Shown: piece by piece, positions 4,123 through 17,289 of the stretch
How the letters are laid out: every line of letters starts with the position of its first letter
Numbering within the stretch: the first letter of the stretch is position 1
Assembly (NCBI GenBank): GCA_013813765.1
Contig: JACCRC010000509.1
Coordinates: forward strand, 1 to 34,305
Length of the DNA stretch: 34,305 nt
Direction of reading: 5' to 3'
Origin: Deltaproteobacteria bacterium
GTDB taxonomy: Bacteria; Myxococcota_A; Polyangia; Haliangiales; Haliangiaceae
Notes under the pieces: model-generated
The model's input: the letters and a program-made list of their open reading frames with translations, nothing else
Told to the model about the DNA's origin: nothing
Databases searched by the model: none
Made by a program: the position numbers and the translations under genes

Positions 4123-5210
4123 CACACGCCTTCCTTGCGACGGAGCCAACCGAACAGGCCGCGCCGCGGCGTCGACGTCCGCGGAGCCTCCTTGGTCTTG
4201 CAGAGCGTCGCGACCGTCGCGAGATCGGTCGCGATTGGCCGACTGCGCGCGACGTCGACGAGCAGCGCGCCCGCATCGAGCGCTTCGCCGACGCGGCCGT
4301 CCTCGCGCACGCGCGCGGCGATCTTCATGCCAAGCGCGCGCTCGATCGAAGCGTCGTCGATCGCCGCGCGCCGCACGGCTCGGTTGACGACCAGCGCACA
4401 CCGACCATCGGCGATGCCGAGGCGGGCGAGCAGCGTAAGCACGCGCGCGGCGCGGCGCACCGACGCGACGTCCTGCGTGACGACCACGAGGATGCGCGTC
4501 GCCTGCTCGAGCGCCGCGAGCGAGACGTCGCCGAAGTCGCGGACGCCGTCGACGACAACATGATCGAAGTGACCGCGCAGCGTATCGAGGAGCAGCGGCA
4601 GCCGGGCGGGCAGGGCGGGGTCGAGGTCCTCGACGTGGCCGGCCTGCGTCAGCGCGCACACACCGGATCCGTGCTGCACGAGCCGGCGCCGCAAGGACGC
4701 GGCATCGAGGGCGTGCGCCTCGCGCGCCACTGCGGACAGCGACGTCTGCGGCTCGAGGTCGAGCGCGACGCACACGTCACCGAGCTGGAGATCGAGGTCG
4801 ACGAGGCAGACGCTCTTGGCGCCGCGCGCGAGCATCGCAGCGGTGTTGACCGCGAGCGTCGTCGAGCCCGCGCCGCCGCGGCAGCCGAACACCACGGTGA
4901 GCTCGCCGCGCGGTGCGGTCTGCGCGACCTGGACCTCGGGAGGCGTCGCGCGGGGCGCGCGCGGGAGCTGCTCGATCACCGAGTACTCCTCGACCACGGG
5001 CACGAACTTCTGCTGCACCGGCGCCGGCGGCGGCAAGGGCGCCGCAACCGGCGCGTGCACGACCGGCGCGCGGTACGACACCGTCGGCATCACGGTCTCG
5101 GCGGGGACGAACGCCGGGAGCTTGCGCGGCGCGCTGCCCTTGCGCTGGTCGACGCGCGTCGCCGGCTCGTCCTGGTAATCGTTGCGAAGATTGCGGTGCG
5201 GGTGGGCCAT
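4122..5210 (-). CDS. cpaE: CpaE/TadZ-like ParA-family localisation ATPase
   Basis: The protein has 362 residues. The first 100 or so are Pro/Ala-rich and look disordered, where classical CpaE has a receiver domain. From residue 104 a ParA/MinD-like fold begins with VVFGCRGGAGSTTLAVN, followed by VCLVDLDLQLGDV (about 134-146) and DHVVVDGVRDFGDV near 206. The P-loop reads RGGAGSTT, so the lysine of the usual GKT/GKS is replaced by Ser, as is common in TadZ proteins. The C-terminus ends in basic GLFGWLRRKEG. CpaE/TadZ proteins position the Tad machine at a pole or focus. The start ATG at 5210 lies 10 bases from the cpaC stop; upstream in-frame codons are low-complexity shadow of cpaC. Confidence 0.88.
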   Translation of the reverse strand: MAHPHRNLRNDYQDEPATRVDQRKGSAPRKLPAFVPAETVMPTVSYRAPVVHAPVAAPLPPPAPVQQKFVPVVEEYSVIEQLPRAPRATPPEVQVAQTAPRGELTVVFGCRGGAGSTTLAVNTAAMLARGAKSVCLVDLDLQLGDVCVALDLEPQTSLSAVAREAHALDAASLRRRLVQHGSGVCALTQAGHVEDLDPALPARLPLLLDTLRGHFDHVVVDGVRDFGDVSLAALEQATRILVVVTQDVASVRRAARVLTLLARLGIADGRCALVVNRAVRRAAIDDASIERALGMKIAARVREDGRVGEALDAGALLVDVARSRPIATDLATVATLCKTKEAPRTSTPRRGLFGWLRRKEGV

Positions 5211-5220
5211 GGGATTGTCC

Positions 5221-6660
5221 TCAGCGCTTGAAGCCAACGGCACCGGCGGGAGAGCCGCCGCGCTTGCTCTCGGCGCGGCCGAGAAAGAACAGTTCGAGAT
5301 CGCCCGGGTCGACGAGGGTCTTCTCGCCGGGGAGCGCGGGCTTCGTGTCGAGCGGCTGCACGGTGTGTGCCGTGACGACGACGAGCAGCTCCGTCTCCTG
5401 ACGGCGGTACGCGCTCGAGCGGAACAACGTGCCGAGGACCGGAATGTCACCGAGCAGCGGCACCTTGTCGACCGACGAGCGGACCTCGTCGGAGATCAGA
5501 CCGGCGATCACGAACGACTGGCCATCGACGAGGCGCACGGTGGTCTCGGAGTGGCGCTCGCGCAGCCCGGGGACCTGCGTCGAGGCGATCCGCACGCCGA
5601 TCGACTGGTCGATGTCGGACACCGTGACACCGAGGTCGAGCGTGATGTCGCGACCCGACACCGTCGGCGTCATGACGAGCTGGATGCCGAACTTGCGGTA
5701 CTCGATGCCGAGCTGGCCGAGTGCCTGCGGAAGCGGCACGGGGAACTCCCCGCCGGCGAGGAACGACGCGCTCTTGCCGCTCATCGCGACCAGCGTCGGC
5801 TCGGCGAGCGTGCGCGCGTAGCCCTTCGACGAGAGCAGCGAGAGCGCGGCGGAGAACGGAAAGCCGCCGAGGGTCGAGCTGAACACGAACCCGAACGCGC
5901 CGCCGATCGGCCCCGAGACGAGGGGAGCGCCGGCCGCGTCGTGGTTCAGGTTGCCGATCGCGCCGTTCGACGGATCCGGCGACACGTTATTGAGGTCGGT
6001 GCCGGGCGAGAGCATGCCCGCCGAGTAGCCGGTGCCACGGCCCGCGTAGGACTTCTTGCTGAAGAAGTTGAAGCCGATCTCGCGCAGGCTCGAGCGCGAC
6101 ACCTCGGCGAACGACACCTCGAGCTGCACCTGCTGCGCGCCCGTGAGCGTCATCGCGTTGACGAGCGTCGGATCGCCGCCATCGAACACGCCCGCGGCAA
6201 TGCCACCGACGATCTTCTCGGCACGCTCGAGGTCCTCGGCGTTCGCGACCTCGCCCGACAGGATGACCGCGCGGCCCGCGTGTGCCACGTCGAGGTTCTT
6301 GCCGGTCGGCAGCGCGCGACGCAGTGCATCGCGCATCTCGTGAACCGGCCAGCCGACGTCGATCGCGACGACCTTCGCCTCGCCGCCGACCCACACCGTC
6401 GCGGTGGTGCGACCGGGGCGCAGGCCGGAGATCAGCAGCTGGTCTGGGTCGAACGCGGTGACCGACGCGATCTGTGCGTCGCCGACTGCCACGCGCGAGA
6501 CCTGCTTGCCCATGCGCAGGTAGCTCGAGCTTCCGACCGTGACGCCGACGGTGCGGTCGGCCTTGGGCGCCGTGTCGGGCGCGTCCTGCGCCGAAGCGAG
6601 ACGCGGTGCGACGACATTCGCCGCGGCGAGTGCCAGGACGAGAGCGAGCTTACTTGGCAT
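5221..6660 (-). CDS. cpaC: Tad outer-membrane secretin CpaC/RcpA
   Basis: The protein has 479 residues. A Sec signal peptide (1-24) ends in LASA before QDAP. An N-terminal pilus-formation domain covers about 36-103, with SRVAVGDAQIASVTA and the LRPGRTTATVW strand. A BON-like segment follows (about 105-170), and the secretin domain (about 175-430) contains LLSSKGYARTLAEPTLVAMS, GIQLVMTPTVSG and the VPLLGDIPVLGTLFRS closing motif. The last 40 residues are a hydrophilic tail. The ring forms the outer-membrane pore for the Flp pilus. The ATG lies inside the last codons of cpaB, an 11-base overlap, which implies translational coupling. Confidence 0.95.
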   Translation of the reverse strand: MPSKLALVLALAAANVVAPRLASAQDAPDTAPKADRTVGVTVGSSSYLRMGKQVSRVAVGDAQIASVTAFDPDQLLISGLRPGRTTATVWVGGEAKVVAIDVGWPVHEMRDALRRALPTGKNLDVAHAGRAVILSGEVANAEDLERAEKIVGGIAAGVFDGGDPTLVNAMTLTGAQQVQLEVSFAEVSRSSLREIGFNFFSKKSYAGRGTGYSAGMLSPGTDLNNVSPDPSNGAIGNLNHDAAGAPLVSGPIGGAFGFVFSSTLGGFPFSAALSLLSSKGYARTLAEPTLVAMSGKSASFLAGGEFPVPLPQALGQLGIEYRKFGIQLVMTPTVSGRDITLDLGVTVSDIDQSIGVRIASTQVPGLRERHSETTVRLVDGQSFVIAGLISDEVRSSVDKVPLLGDIPVLGTLFRSSAYRRQETELLVVVTAHTVQPLDTKPALPGEKTLVDPGDLELFFLGRAESKRGGSPAGAVGFKR

Positions 6661-13196: not shown

Positions 13197-14054
13197 ATGA
13201 AATCTAGCACTGTCGTGATCGGGGTCGTCTGCGCGCTCGCGGCCCATGTCGTCGCGGAGCCTCGCGTCACCGTGCACCCCAAGGTCCTCCACGCCGGTGA
13301 CCCGGTGCTCGTCACCGTCACCGCGGCCAAGGAGGCTCCGACGGGAACCGCGAACGGGACCGCGCTCCAGTTCTTCCGCTCGAGGAACGGCTATCAGGCG
13401 GTGGCCGCCGTCCCGCTCGACGGTAAGGAGGACACGATGACCATCGCCGTCGACAAGGCGAAGGCCAAGGTCGTCGTTCCCGTGCGCGCCAAAAACTTTC
13501 CCGAGGCGGATGTCGTCGTCGAGGACGAGCTCGCGAATCCCGATGCACCGCAGCGCGTGCAGATCGACGCCGACAACAAGGCGATCATCGAAGCGTTGTT
13601 GAAGGCGAAGGGCGATCCGCAGTTCACGCTCGGCTTCCGCAGGCCGGGGGGACGCGTGACGTCGGCGTTCGGTGAGTGGCGTACGTTCAACGATGGCCAC
13701 AAGAGCCAGCACCTCGGCCTCGATCTGACGGCGAAGGAAGGCTCTCCGGTCCGCGCCGTCAACGCGGGCACCGTCACGTTGGTCCGCGACGCGTACCTCG
13801 CGGGAACCGTGGTCGTCGTCGCGCACGGCGGCGGTATCGGCACGGCGTACTACCACCTCAGCAAGACGAGTGTGACCGAGGGCCAAACCGTCGCCCGCGG
13901 CACGCCGATCGGCGCAGCGGGCAAGACCGGCCGCTCGACCGGCGCGCACCTGCACATCAGCGTGCGGACGCCAGGCGGCATGGTCGATCCGGCGGGCTTC
14001 TTCAAGCTGCCGATTGCACCCGCCGCGCAGCGTGGTATCGTCACTAAACGATGA
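13197..14054 (+). CDS. Secreted M23-family (LytM) metallopeptidase
   Basis: The protein has 285 residues. A Sec signal peptide (1-20, cleaved after HVVA) is followed by an Ig-like beta domain (about 22-112) and the LytM domain (about 145-270). Zinc ligands are visible: H172 and D176 in SQHLGLDLT, and H253 in [10 protein letters not shown]220 in YYHLSK is the usual second catalytic His. All catalytic residues are present, so it is likely an active peptidoglycan endopeptidase in the periplasm or outside the cell. The stop overlaps the arsR start in an ATGA, and the last six codons carry the -10 box and operator of arsR. The start was chosen for the signal peptide and the promoter. Confidence 0.92.
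14014..14041 (+). promoter_or_regulatory. Predicted arsR promoter inside the 3' end of the M23 gene
   Basis: TTGCAC (14014-14019) and TATCGT (14036-14041) are separated by 16 bases. The arsR ATG begins 9 bases after the -10 box, which implies a leaderless or nearly leaderless mRNA. The promoter lies wholly inside the coding sequence of the peptidase, so the arsenic operon can fire separately although its first gene overlaps the peptidase stop. Confidence 0.5.
14036..14052. promoter_or_regulatory. Candidate ArsR operator O1 over the arsR start
   Basis: An inverted repeat ATCGT-CACTAA-ACGAT (14037-14052) overlaps the -10 hexamer and ends in the arsR start codon. The arms and the 6-base spacer match the core of the second repeat at 14373-14394. 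A repressor bound here would block polymerase directly. Autoregulation by ArsR is the norm in this family; binding to this site is inferred. Confidence 0.55.
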
Positions 14055-14371
14055 AAGCGGCGGCCTGCTGCCCCACCCCGGATCTGCGTGCGATCGGCGA
14101 CGAGGTCGCCGACGAGGCCCTGGCCAGCCTGGCCAAGGCGCTCGCGCACCCGATCCGGGTGCAGATCGTCCGGATCCTCGCTCGCACCGAGAGCTGCGTG
14201 TGCGGCGATCTCGTCGAGCAGCTGCCCGTTGCGCAGTCCACGGTGTCGCAGCACCTCAAGGTCTTGAAAGATGCGGGCCTGATCCAGGGGACGATCGACG
14301 GCCCGCGGGTCTGCTACTGCATCGACCCCGAGGGTTTGCGGCGCTTGCGTGTCCTGGTCTCCGGGTTGTAG
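14051..14371 (+). CDS. arsR: ArsR-family arsenic-responsive repressor
   Basis: A 106-residue winged-helix repressor. The core [21 protein letters not shown] is followed by [12 protein letters not shown], which carries the type-I metalloid site (C49, C51) at the DNA-binding end, and the recognition helix [18 protein letters not shown]. Extra Cys pairs lie at C6-C7 (AACCP) and C88/C90 (VCYC) and could be third ligands for As(III). Binding of arsenite or Sb(III) should release it from DNA. It heads a plus-strand operon and its ATG overlaps the M23 stop. Two matching inverted repeats, at its own start and at the aquaporin start, are probable operators. Confidence 0.93.
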
Positions 14372-14372
14372 T

Positions 14373-14394
14373 CTTATCGTTAAATGACGATAAG
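14373..14394. promoter_or_regulatory. Perfect 22-base inverted repeat over the aquaporin start (candidate operator O2)
   Basis: CTTATCGT-TAAATG-ACGATAAG has perfect 8-base arms and a 6-base spacer that contains the aquaporin start codon (14384-14386). It begins 2 bases after the arsR stop. Its core ATCGT-N6-ACGAT is the same as O1. It may be a second ArsR site; as RNA it would also form a short hairpin with the AUG in the loop, which could reduce translation of the downstream genes relative to arsR. Confidence 0.6.
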
Positions 14395-15091
14395 TGCAGC
14401 GCGAGCGTACGCGGCCGAGCTGCTCGGCACGATGCTCCTGCTCGCGACGATCGTCGGCTCGGGGATCATGGCGCAGACCCTGAGCCCGGCGAACATGGGC
14501 GTCGCGCTGCTCGCGAATGCGGTCGCCACGGGTGGAATCCTGTACGTGCTGATCCTCGGGCTCGGCCCGATCTCCGGCGCGCACATGAATCCGGTCATCA
14601 CGCTGATCGAGGCAGCGTTCCGGCGACTCCCACGCGAGCGCGTCCCCGGCTATGTCATCGCGCAGCTGATCGGCGCGTGTGCGGGCGTTGTCCTCGCGCA
14701 CGCGATGTTCGGGCTCGAGCTCGTGCAGCACGGCACCCGTGCGCGCGATAGCTCCGGGGAGCTGATCAGCGAGGTCGTCGCGATGTTCGGACTGTGGCTC
14801 GTGATCGCGACGTCGAGCCGCGCGCGCCCGGCGAGCGTGCCGGCGGCCGTGGCGCTGTACATCGTCGCGGCCTACTGGTTCACGGCCTCGACGTCGTTCG
14901 CCAATCCGGCGGTCACGCTCGCACGCTCGTTCACCGAGACGTTCGCCGGCATCCGGCTCGCGGACGCGCCGAAGTTCATCGCGATGCAGGTGATCGGCGG
15001 CGCCGCCGCGGCGGGGCTGACCGCCTGGCTGCTGAATTCCGGCGTCCATCCGGATCCAGCTGCGTCTTCCTCCACGAAGGAGACACCATGA
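14384..15091 (+). CDS. aqpS: AqpS-type aquaglyceroporin (arsenite channel)
   Basis: A 235-residue six-helix MIP channel. The first half has AELLGTMLLLATIVGSGIMA and the first pore loop SGAHMNPVIT, where NPA is NPV (69-71). The second loop is SFANPAVTLARS with NPA at 174-176 and filter Arg at 181. AqpS of Sinorhizobium meliloti, in an arsR-aqpS-arsC-arsH operon, lets arsenite formed inside the cell diffuse out in place of an ArsB/Acr3 pump. No pump gene is seen here, so the same role is likely. It overlaps arsM by 4 bases (ATGA). The Ser-rich hydrophilic C-terminal tail is not conserved. Water or glycerol transport is the alternative. Confidence 0.87.
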   Translation: MTISAARAYAAELLGTMLLLATIVGSGIMAQTLSPANMGVALLANAVATGGILYVLILGLGPISGAHMNPVITLIEAAFRRLPRERVPGYVIAQLIGACAGVVLAHAMFGLELVQHGTRARDSSGELISEVVAMFGLWLVIATSSRARPASVPAAVALYIVAAYWFTASTSFANPAVTLARSFTETFAGIRLADAPKFIAMQVIGGAAAAGLTAWLLNSGVHPDPAASSSTKETP

Positions 15092-15882
15092 AGACCAGCG
15101 ATGAGATCCGGACCGACGTGAGGACCCATTACAGCGCGATCGCGCGCGGCGCCACGAGTGGCTGCTGCGGCGGTGGGCCGTGCGGCAGCGAGCAGCTCGG
15201 CTACACCAAGGACGAGCTCGCGGCGGTGCCCGCAGGCGCAGACCTCGGCCTTGGCTGCGGCAACCCACAGGCGATCGCCGCGCTGCGGCCCGGCGAGATC
15301 GTGATCGACCTCGGCGCGGGCGGCGGTTTCGACGCATTCCTCGCAGCGCGAGCGGTCGGTGCAAGCGGCAAGGTCATCGGCGTCGACATGAGCGCCGACA
15401 TGATCCAGCTCGCGCGCACCAACGCGTCGAAGCAACGAGCGGGCAACGTCGAGTTCCGGATCGGCGAGATCGAGCACCTCCCGATCCAGGACGACACCGC
15501 GGATGTCGTGATGTCGAACTGCGTGATCAACCTGTCGCCCGACAAGCCCGCGGTCTATCGCGAGGCGTTCCGCGTTCTGCGCGCGGGCGGCCGGCTCGCC
15601 ATCACCGACGTCGTCGCCTTGCGTCCTCTGCCCGCGGAGCTCGCCGACGACGTCGCCGCGATGTGCGGGTGCGTAGCAGGAGCGGCAGACCTCCACGAGC
15701 TGCGCACGCTGCTCGTCGAGATCGGCTTCACCGACGTCCAGGTCGAGGTGCTCCCCGGCAGCCGCGACGTGATCGCGGGCTGGGCGCCGGGCCGCGGCTT
15801 CGAGGAGCACGTCGCATCGGCGCGGATCTCCGCGATAAGGCCGACCGCGGGTGCGTGCTGCGCTCCGGGGTGCTGCGGATGA
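15088..15882 (+). CDS. arsM: Arsenite S-adenosylmethionine methyltransferase ArsM
   Basis: A 264-residue class I methyltransferase that converts As(III) to methylated species. The SAM-binding site is EIVIDLGAGGGFDAFLAA (about 70-87), followed by GKVIGVDMSADMIQLAR. The conserved cysteines are C57 in GLGCGNP, C145 in MSNCVINLSPDK, and C193/C195 in MCGCVAGA, matching the As(III)-binding cysteines of the family. Two extra Cys clusters are present: C26, C27, C32 near the N-terminus and C257, C258, C262, C263 in the last eight residues. A GAAGGAG ribosome binding site precedes the ATG, which overlaps the aquaporin stop. The stop overlaps the sigma factor start as ATGA. Confidence 0.94.
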   Translation: MKTSDEIRTDVRTHYSAIARGATSGCCGGGPCGSEQLGYTKDELAAVPAGADLGLGCGNPQAIAALRPGEIVIDLGAGGGFDAFLAARAVGASGKVIGVDMSADMIQLARTNASKQRAGNVEFRIGEIEHLPIQDDTADVVMSNCVINLSPDKPAVYREAFRVLRAGGRLAITDVVALRPLPAELADDVAAMCGCVAGAADLHELRTLLVEIGFTDVQVEVLPGSRDVIAGWAPGRGFEEHVASARISAIRPTAGACCAPGCCG

Positions 15883-16421
15883 TCGAGCTGCCCTGGCAGG
15901 AGCTGCGCGACGATCTGCACCGGTTCGTTGCCGCGCGCGCTCCGGCGGCCGAGGTCGACGACATCGTGCAAGAAGCGCTCGTGCGCGTCCATCAGGGCGT
16001 CTCGGCGGTCCGCGATACCGAGCGCGTCGGAGCGTGGATCTACCAGGTCACGCGAAACGCGATCGTCGATCACCACCGGCGCACGCGACACGGCGAGGAG
16101 CTGCCCGACGACACCGCCGCGCCGCCGGTGGACACCATCGACGACACCACGTTCACGCGCCTCGCGCGGTGCCTCACGCCGTTCGTCGCGCTGCTGCCGC
16201 CGGTATATCGACAGGCGATCACGCTGGTCGAGCTCGAAGGGCTCACGCAGGTCGAGGCAGCGGCGCGACTCGGCGTTCCGATCTCGACGATGAAGGCGCG
16301 CGTCCAGCGCGGCCGCGCGAGGCTGCGCGAGCTCGTCGAGGCGTGCTGTGCGATCGGGCTCGACGTGCGCGGTCATGTGGTCGACGTGATGCCAAGAGTT
16401 GAAGGCTGCAGCGCATGCTAG
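15879..16421 (+). CDS. SigZ-like ECF sigma factor with cysteine tail
   Basis: A 180-residue sigma-70 family factor. Region 2 covers about 8-70 (AAEVDDIVQEALVRVHQG, then GAWIYQVTRNAIVDHHRR). Region 4 covers about 98-152 (LLPPVYRQAITLVELEGLTQ and the helix-turn-helix GVPISTMKARVQRGRARL). The C-terminal 27 residues (154-180) carry C156-C157, a DVRGHVVDV stretch, then C177 and C180. This tail resembles that of SigZ-family factors. No anti-sigma gene is adjacent. The start overlaps the arsM stop in an ATGA. In the ars operon it could direct polymerase to a wider metalloid regulon, and the four Cys are candidate As(III) ligands; both points are inference. Confidence 0.85.
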   Translation: MIELPWQELRDDLHRFVAARAPAAEVDDIVQEALVRVHQGVSAVRDTERVGAWIYQVTRNAIVDHHRRTRHGEELPDDTAAPPVDTIDDTTFTRLARCLTPFVALLPPVYRQAITLVELEGLTQVEAAARLGVPISTMKARVQRGRARLRELVEACCAIGLDVRGHVVDVMPRVEGCSAC

Positions 16422-16431
16422 GGTGGACGTG

Positions 16432-17289
16432 ATGAGCGCGCCCGGCGTGCTGTTCCTCTGTGTCGCGAACTCGGCGCGCAGCCAGCTCGCGGAGGGCCTG
16501 GCGCGACAGCGCTTCGGTGCGGCGCTGCAGATTCAGAGCGCCGGCTCGATCCCGACGAAGGTGAATCCGTACGCGATCGAGACGATGCTGGAGGTCGGCG
16601 TCGATCTCGCCACGCATACGTCGAAGCTCGTCAGCGAGATCGATCCAAAAGGTATCGAGCTCGTGATCACGCTGTGCGCCGAGGAGGTGTGCCCCGCGTT
16701 CTACGCGCCGGTGCGCCGCATCCACTGGCCGATTCCCGATCCGGCGACGTCCGATCCGAAGGTGACCCGCGAGGAGCTCGTCGAGCGATTTCGCACCGCG
16801 CGCGGCCGGATCGGCGCGCGTCTTCACCTCATCGAGCCTGCGCTCGCGCTTCCGCCGCGCACCTTGATCGCGCCGGCGACCGCCGAGGACCGCCCCGAGA
16901 TCGGCGCCTTGATGATAACCGCTGGACTCCCGCTCGACGGTCTCGAGAAAACGGATCTCGTGGTCGCGCGGATCGATGGCCACCTTGTCGGCGCGGCGGG
17001 CCTCGAGCACTGGGGCGGCGACTGGCTCTTGCGGTCGGTGGCCGTCGCGACCGAGCATCGCAGCAGCGGAATCGCGGAGCTGCTCGTGCGCGATCGGCTG
17101 TGCATCGCGCAGCTCGGTGGGGCGACTTCGGTCCACCTCCTCACCACGGCCGCGCGCGGTTACTTCGAGCGGTTCGGCTTCACCGCGATCGAGCGTGCGA
17201 CGCTGCCGAAGGCGCTGCACCAGTCGACGCAGCTCGCGATCTCGGCGTGCTCGACGGCGATCGCGATGGTCCGCCCGATCCTCACTTGA
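16432..17289 (+). CDS. arsC: Fusion: ArsC arsenate reductase (LMW-PTPase type) plus ArsN2-like acetyltransferase
   Basis: A 285-residue two-domain protein. Residues 1-140 are a thioredoxin-type ArsC: the loop LFLCVANSARSQLAEG has C10 and R16, C82 and C87 sit in TLCAEEVCPAF, and the general-acid loop is IPDPA (102-106). These correspond to C10, C82 and C89 of the staphylococcal plasmid enzyme. Residues 145-285 are a GNAT domain of ArsN2 type: TAGLPLDGLEKTDLVVA, GAAGLEHWGGDWLLRSVAVA, acetyl-CoA loop RSSGIA, LLTTAARGYFERFGF. The first half reduces arsenate; the substrate of the second is unknown. The start at 16432 follows AGGGTGG by 6 bases; an ATG 11 codons earlier (16399) would overlap the sigma gene. 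It converges with the next gene, overlapping by 8 bases. Confidence 0.88.
   Translation: MSAPGVLFLCVANSARSQLAEGLARQRFGAALQIQSAGSIPTKVNPYAIETMLEVGVDLATHTSKLVSEIDPKGIELVITLCAEEVCPAFYAPVRRIHWPIPDPATSDPKVTREELVERFRTARGRIGARLHLIEPALALPPRTLIAPATAEDRPEIGALMITAGLPLDGLEKTDLVVARIDGHLVGAAGLEHWGGDWLLRSVAVATEHRSSGIAELLVRDRLCIAQLGGATSVHLLTTAARGYFERFGFTAIERATLPKALHQSTQLAISACSTAIAMVRPILT

Follow-up and report, generated by a model that had tools for sequence, protein, structure and literature searches.

The window, by which is meant the whole stretch of 34,305 nt that was analysed, contains an ars operon with its genes on one strand in the order arsR-MIP-arsM-sigZ-arsC/arsN2, the sigma factor gene being the fourth. 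The operon opens with an ORF for an ArsR/SmtB-family repressor (14051..14371, + strand, as are all window features given here), which scores over the cut-off of NF033788 and carries a CVC motif (ESCVCGDL). There follow an aquaporin-like channel of the MIP family (14384..15091; TIGR00861, PF00230), an ArsM arsenite methyltransferase (15088..15882; NF008823, 307.5 bits with a cut-off of 263), a SigZ-like ECF sigma factor of 180 aa (15879..16421) and a fusion of thioredoxin-type ArsC with ArsN2 (16432..17289), the two halves of which both score below the curated cut-offs (TIGR02691, 95.9 bits, cut-off 174.3; NF040501, 106.6 bits, cut-off 125). With ArsR and an arsenite methyltransferase on one strand, this is an ars operon of the arsM type. 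The stop codon of arsM and the start codon of sigZ overlap in an ATGA (15879-15882). The presence of ArsC and ArsN2 in a single ORF (16432-17289) is also a feature of the related locus L021, which has the same layout.

Two copies of an inverted repeat, ATCGT-N6-ACGAT, lie in the operon, one overlapping the start of arsR (14037..14052) and one overlapping the start of the MIP gene (14376..14391), where 0.10 matches would be expected in the window. A longer form, TATCGT-N6-ACGATR, is confined to these two sites in the genome, and both repeats are found at the same places in the relatives L021 and L126. Their form, position and conservation make it likely that they are ArsR operators. The operon of L126 (G007:C231), a close relative, also has arsR-MIP partly duplicated, together with the ArsR operator, and the frame of its sigZ breaks after residue 109.

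The product of 15879-16421 possesses sigma-70 region 2 (PF04542, residues 8-70) and region 4 (PF08281, residues 103-149), both above their gathering scores, and lacks region 3, as is the case for ECF factors; its best fold-search matches are also ECF factors, such as SigL, SigH and sigmaE. SigZ families are the best among curated profiles. However, the protein scores 161.6 bits with NF007215 (cut-off 212) and 155 bits with TIGR02959 (cut-off 168.65) and, because it lies below both cut-offs, it is referred to here as SigZ-like only. The SigZ profile is nevertheless matched over its full length (6-181 of 181), the match reaching the last residue of the protein and including a conserved CC...C tail. 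The tail and the promoter box described below are shared with members which do exceed the TIGR02959 cut-off (e.g., G034 = L079 and G356 = L146). Translation of the ORF places C156 (16344-16346), C157 (16347-16349), C177 (16407-16409) and C180 (16416-16418) behind region 4, in a C-terminal cysteine tail (16344..16418). A first-pass annotation of this DNA had described an ECF sigma factor encoded inside an ars operon and having, beyond region 4, the cysteines C156-C157 and C177-x-x-C180, and the domain matches, the translation and the ArsR, ArsM and ArsC-ArsN2 neighbours agree with it on all these points. A fifth cysteine, C98 (16170..16172), which that annotation had omitted, is located in the helix leading into region 4; a cysteine is found here in 82/125 homologues and is invariant in an alignment of 11 sequences (A3).

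Among 125 aligned SigZ-like proteins, the cysteine corresponding to C157 is kept in 122 and that corresponding to C156 in 111, while the columns of the distal cysteines C180 (the last) and C177 hold cysteine in 101 and 45 proteins, respectively. Most other positions of the tail are variable. The conservation of the cysteines among homologues, which had been proposed as a check, is thereby borne out. The family motif can be written as CC-x4-D-x2-G...C, with the distal pattern varying between CxxC, CxC and CC. This motif is also present in SigZ proteins encoded on plasmids of Vibrio and Rhodococcus, while SigZ of Priestia retains the CC and has no distal cysteine. The tail cysteines are likewise kept by SigZ proteins with no ars gene nearby, namely at 15/26 Bacteroidota loci and on the Vibrio and Priestia plasmids. 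A chance origin of the tail is ruled out by the retention of C157 (122/125) across five phyla, and its acquisition for this operon is also ruled out, since SigZ proteins far from ars genes carry the same tail, which cannot then have arisen for this operon alone. In an AlphaFold2 model (mean pLDDT 81), the tail forms a beta-hairpin (157-161/167-172) after the last helix of region 4, with C177 and C180 just behind it; as modelled, the hairpin could bring the C156-C157 and C177/C180 pairs together.

The gene neighbourhood was compared for a set of 126 SigZ-like loci (61 Myxococcota, 20 Nitrospirota, 18 Chloroflexota, 26 Bacteroidota and 1 Actinomycetota, phyla being assigned from the record titles of the seed genomes) and for a control set of 28 non-SigZ ECF genes, of which 20 came from this genome set. 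ArsM, ArsI, ArsC, ACR3, ArsN2, ArsK-like, ArsO-like and ArsP/SaoE-like permease genes were counted as core ars genes, with profiles built from identified members. At least one such gene lies within 5 kb of sigZ at 102/126 loci, as against 0/28 for the control ECF genes, and at 91/126 loci a core ars gene adjoins sigZ on the same strand. Ars neighbours, another point on which the family was to be checked, are thus the rule for SigZ, and a linkage of SigZ to ars genes is demonstrated at the level of gene order. Because close relationship guided part of the choice of loci, these proportions are not unbiased; in an evenly drawn sample of Myxococcota, sigZ lies directly downstream of 31/113 arsM genes.

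The commonest partners are arsM or arsI, the identity of which is well supported, as 47/47 ArsM neighbours match NF008823 at E <= 1e-60 and 27/27 ArsI neighbours match NF041414. An in-frame stop in the arsM match of G258, the single case checked by coordinates, is the terminal stop of the gene itself. In Myxococcota arsM is upstream of sigZ (present in 41/61 loci) and in Chloroflexota, Nitrospirota and Bacteroidota it is downstream, so that the arsM-sigZ pairing exists in different arrangements. It is replaced by arsI in Nitrospirota (15/20) and some Bacteroidota, and no locus among the 126 was found to have both arsM and arsI. Less frequent partners are ArsK-like, ArsO-like and SaoE-like proteins, assignments which lie partly below curated cut-offs.

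ECF factors are commonly partnered by an anti-sigma factor, as is apparent in the control set, where an open frame within 900 nt downstream has the zinc-finger motif HxxxCxxC in 20/28 cases and where zf-HC2 is the commonest family in a Pfam census (12/28). For SigZ, the motif was found downstream at 1/126 loci, and zf-HC2 is not among the families listed for the downstream ORFs. The window has no adjacent anti-sigma gene either and so does not encode an anti-sigma-controlled ECF pair; the earlier observation that such a gene is lacking holds for the window and extends to the family. The census and the motif count together rule out a hidden adjacent anti-sigma gene.

A two-block motif search upstream of the operons, with no sequence assumed beforehand, identified one motif in each of three phyla independently, namely Myxococcota (28/40 upstream regions, with a maximum of 9 in shuffled sequences), Nitrospirota and Chloroflexota. 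The aligned box reads TGCGTCCTTTY-N11-CGTCT, the base preceding CGTC being most often C, with a TGCATCC variant in one group of Myxococcota. Using the pattern [TG]GCRTCCWTY-N12-CGTCW, the box was found on the sigZ strand at 69/126 loci and on the opposite strand at one, with none in 20 dinucleotide shuffles and none at the 28 control ECF loci; 57/126 SigZ loci have no box under this pattern, and in Bacteroidota the consensus box occurs in only 2/26 loci. It usually lies some 60-80 nt before the first gene and is also present at six SigZ loci without ars genes. CGTC is the usual -10 block of ECF promoters, while the -35 block differs from the GGAAC that is usual for these. In the window, the predicted SigZ promoter (GGCGTCCATCCGGATCCAGCTGCGTCT, 15041..15067) lies within the MIP gene, at its 3′ end, and stops 20 nt short of the start codon of arsM. 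It fits the family pattern, with a G at the first position making it a weaker match, and in L021 and L126, the two closest relatives, the spacing between box and arsM is identical.

The box follows sigZ closely. In 41 whole genomes, a strict form gave 32 matches, all of them at a SigZ locus, and the reversed pattern gave none. It precedes 23 of 30 arsM genes with an adjoining sigZ as against 1 of 82 without, and the sole exception is a truncated arsM fused to a C-terminal remnant of sigZ. A search for the box by itself, in genomes that had not contributed to the SigZ sample, led to new SigZ loci (L272, L273 and L276). This strict co-occurrence, from which use of the box by SigZ is inferred, makes TGCRTCCWTY-N12-CGTCW a likely SigZ promoter. 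There is a very small chance that it is instead the site of another regulator co-occurring with SigZ, as its unusual -35 element might suggest, but two blocks at promoter spacing, an ECF-type -10, a strong strand preference (69 against 1), a common position 60-80 nt before the first gene, its presence at SigZ loci that have no ars genes and its lack at arsM loci that have no sigZ all argue against this.

Several of the box-bearing loci are of note in their own right. At L298 (G201:C10, 1141-1955), the exception above, a truncated arsM runs into the C-terminal half of sigZ, a junction resulting from either a deletion or an assembly gap, and the box has been retained upstream. L272 (G894:C26, ~4200-6350) has three boxes, one before each of a flavin monooxygenase-like gene, sigZ and an ArsK-like MFS gene. 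L270 (G243:C49, 3011-3493) has a strong box before a shortened sigZ without its middle part, likely a decayed copy.

The loose pattern has only two matches in the 8.1 Mb genome of the window. The second of these is a perfect box (G000:C15:7312-7338, equivalent to L234 1501-1527) positioned 40 nt upstream of the start codon of a phytochelatin synthase gene (L234:1541-2653; PF05023, E-value 4e-83). This gene may be a second SigZ target, and a box before it would fit an arsenic regulon. The phytochelatin synthase genes of relatives, where these could be tested, have no such box, which leaves this gene as the only candidate of its kind.

The name SigZ dates from 1997, when it was given to a factor of Bacillus subtilis (Sorokin et al., cited in PMC2700814). 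The window protein resembles this family (TIGR02959, NF007215) in its full-length match including the tail, in the CC-x4-D-x2-G...C motif and in having no adjacent anti-sigma gene; it differs in scoring below both cut-offs and in being located in an ars operon. ECF factors that sense through a cysteine tail of their own are already known as a kind, examples being CorE and CorE2 of Myxococcus xanthus (former ECF44, now partly ECF238), which are activated by Cu or Cd/Zn through their C-terminal cysteines (PMC8999054, PMC9023288). Like the window protein, these have a short Cys-rich C-terminal extension and no anti-sigma factor, and the tail of CorE2, which responds to Cd/Zn, also begins with CC (PMC9023288, PMC8999054). 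However, CorE-like factors have a CxC in the linker between sigma2 and sigma4 and a dense C-terminal domain of 4-5 Cys in ~12 residues, whereas window SigZ has the single linker cysteine C98, a tail of the form C-C-X19-C-X2-C, with CC and CxxC 19 residues apart, and arsenical genes as neighbours. In the case of OrbS of Burkholderia cenocepacia, Fur controls synthesis and the Cys tail senses the same Fe(II) (PMC9023288), an on-board sensor combined with a repressor for the same ion that parallels ArsR and SigZ (PMC9023288). OrbS differs in being an iron-starvation factor inhibited by Fe(II), with a siderophore regulon and another cysteine spacing. For ECF287 and ECF288 too, C-terminal extensions rich in Cys are reported, and a mode of action like that of CorE has been suggested (PMC8999054); their likeness to window SigZ, compared by description only, lies in this extension (PMC8999054). 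The operon itself shares ArsR, MIP channel, ArsM, ArsC, ArsN2 and inverted-repeat operators with ArsR-controlled ars operons, to which it adds a sigma factor and an internal ECF-type promoter.

The explanation which we favour, and regard as rather probable, is that the SigZ-like protein is a local positive regulator of the arsenic methylation operon and is gated by its cysteine hairpin through a soft thiophilic ligand. Judging by the form, position and conservation of the two inverted-repeat operators, ArsR would repress arsR and the MIP-arsM-sigZ-arsC/arsN2 transcript. Inactivation of ArsR by arsenic would lead to arsM and sigZ being made together, as their ATGA overlap suggests, and SigZ with RNA polymerase would start at the internal promoter before arsM (-35 TGCRTCCWTY, -10 CGTCW), boosting transcription of arsM-sigZ-arsC/arsN2. 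Likely autoregulation from this promoter is a third element beside the two alternatives of the first-pass annotation (a factor that is its own sensor, or one under ArsR control only). It increases the need for a further check on the activity of SigZ and, since there is no anti-sigma factor, something must stop the loop from locking on, for which the cysteine hairpin is the obvious candidate. The hairpin, through C156-C157 with C177/C180, would gate SigZ by binding the ligand. Because enzymes acting on arsenicals adjoin SigZ, a trivalent arsenical such as As(III) or methylarsenite is the most likely one. Ligand sensing by the tail is suggested by the precedent of CorE and OrbS, and binding could result in activation as in the former or inhibition by the bound metal as in the latter. 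Several observations weigh against this explanation, namely the tail cysteines of SigZ proteins away from ars genes, the low occupancy of the C177 column and the varied distal pattern, the absence of a distal cysteine in Priestia SigZ, the weaker box of the window and its position in MIP coding sequence, and the SigZ loci and phytochelatin synthase genes that have no box. The wider proposal that the SigZ-like family consists of one-component arsenical-sensing sigma factors, with a CC...CxxC hairpin gating an autoregulated box for arsM, arsI and related genes in at least five phyla, is put forward more tentatively, as somewhat short of probable.

SigZ may also be controlled through its expression only, by derepression from ArsR followed by self-amplification, with the tail as a structural zinc site for folding or holding region 4. 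The conserved repeats at arsR and MIP, the longer form of which is unique in the genome, are compatible with such control, as are the retention of the tail in SigZ proteins away from ars genes and its prediction by AlphaFold2 as an ordered hairpin. Nonetheless, an autoregulated sigma factor without an off switch would tend to stay on, and most SigZ operons of Nitrospirota and Chloroflexota have no match near sigZ to the window ArsR, a query by which divergent repressors would be missed. We consider this explanation unlikely, though deserving of serious weight. A comparably low probability is given to the tail responding to something other or wider than arsenicals (Cd, Zn, Cu or thiol oxidation), in which case shared thiol chemistry would account for ars genes being common targets. 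Cadmium, too, is handled by the ArsI/CadI family and by phytochelatin synthase, and SigZ proteins without ars neighbours keep the tail, the cysteines of which would in such proteins fit a structural zinc site or a wider metal or redox sensor equally well. Cd and Zn are the signals for CorE2, the tail of which contains CC (PMC9023288, PMC8999054). However, the neighbours that recur beside SigZ are ArsM, ArsI, ArsC, ACR3, ArsN2, ArsK-like and ArsO-like proteins and not exporters of Cd, Zn or Cu. Finally, SigZ could be held by an unlinked anti-sigma factor or protease, a matter on which neighbourhoods are silent; with a conserved anti-sigma neighbour absent from 126 loci in five phyla, and with the zinc-finger motif present in 20/28 controls, we consider this very improbable.

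A literature search found no paper that links SigZ to arsenic in a relevant sense or gives SigZ a role. As far as the searched literature shows, the linkage of SigZ to arsenical genes across phyla and the SigZ promoter are new. The neighbourhood and promoter evidence points to local control of arsenical methylation and demethylation genes as the likely job of the family, and the box provides a concrete promoter to test along with a sensor hypothesis for SigZ. If the favoured explanation is true, ArsR would be joined in the arsenic response by a layer of sigma-factor control, and the box could be used to mark SigZ regulons and to build arsenic biosensors.

A subfamily of SigZ (L089, L101, L103, L114, L129, L131, L133 and L162) has a different tail, consisting of a single C followed by a VCCFVPR-like end. 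Its members adjoin ArsC/ACR3, several having an ArsP/SaoE-like permease also, and they probably represent a separate arsenical branch.
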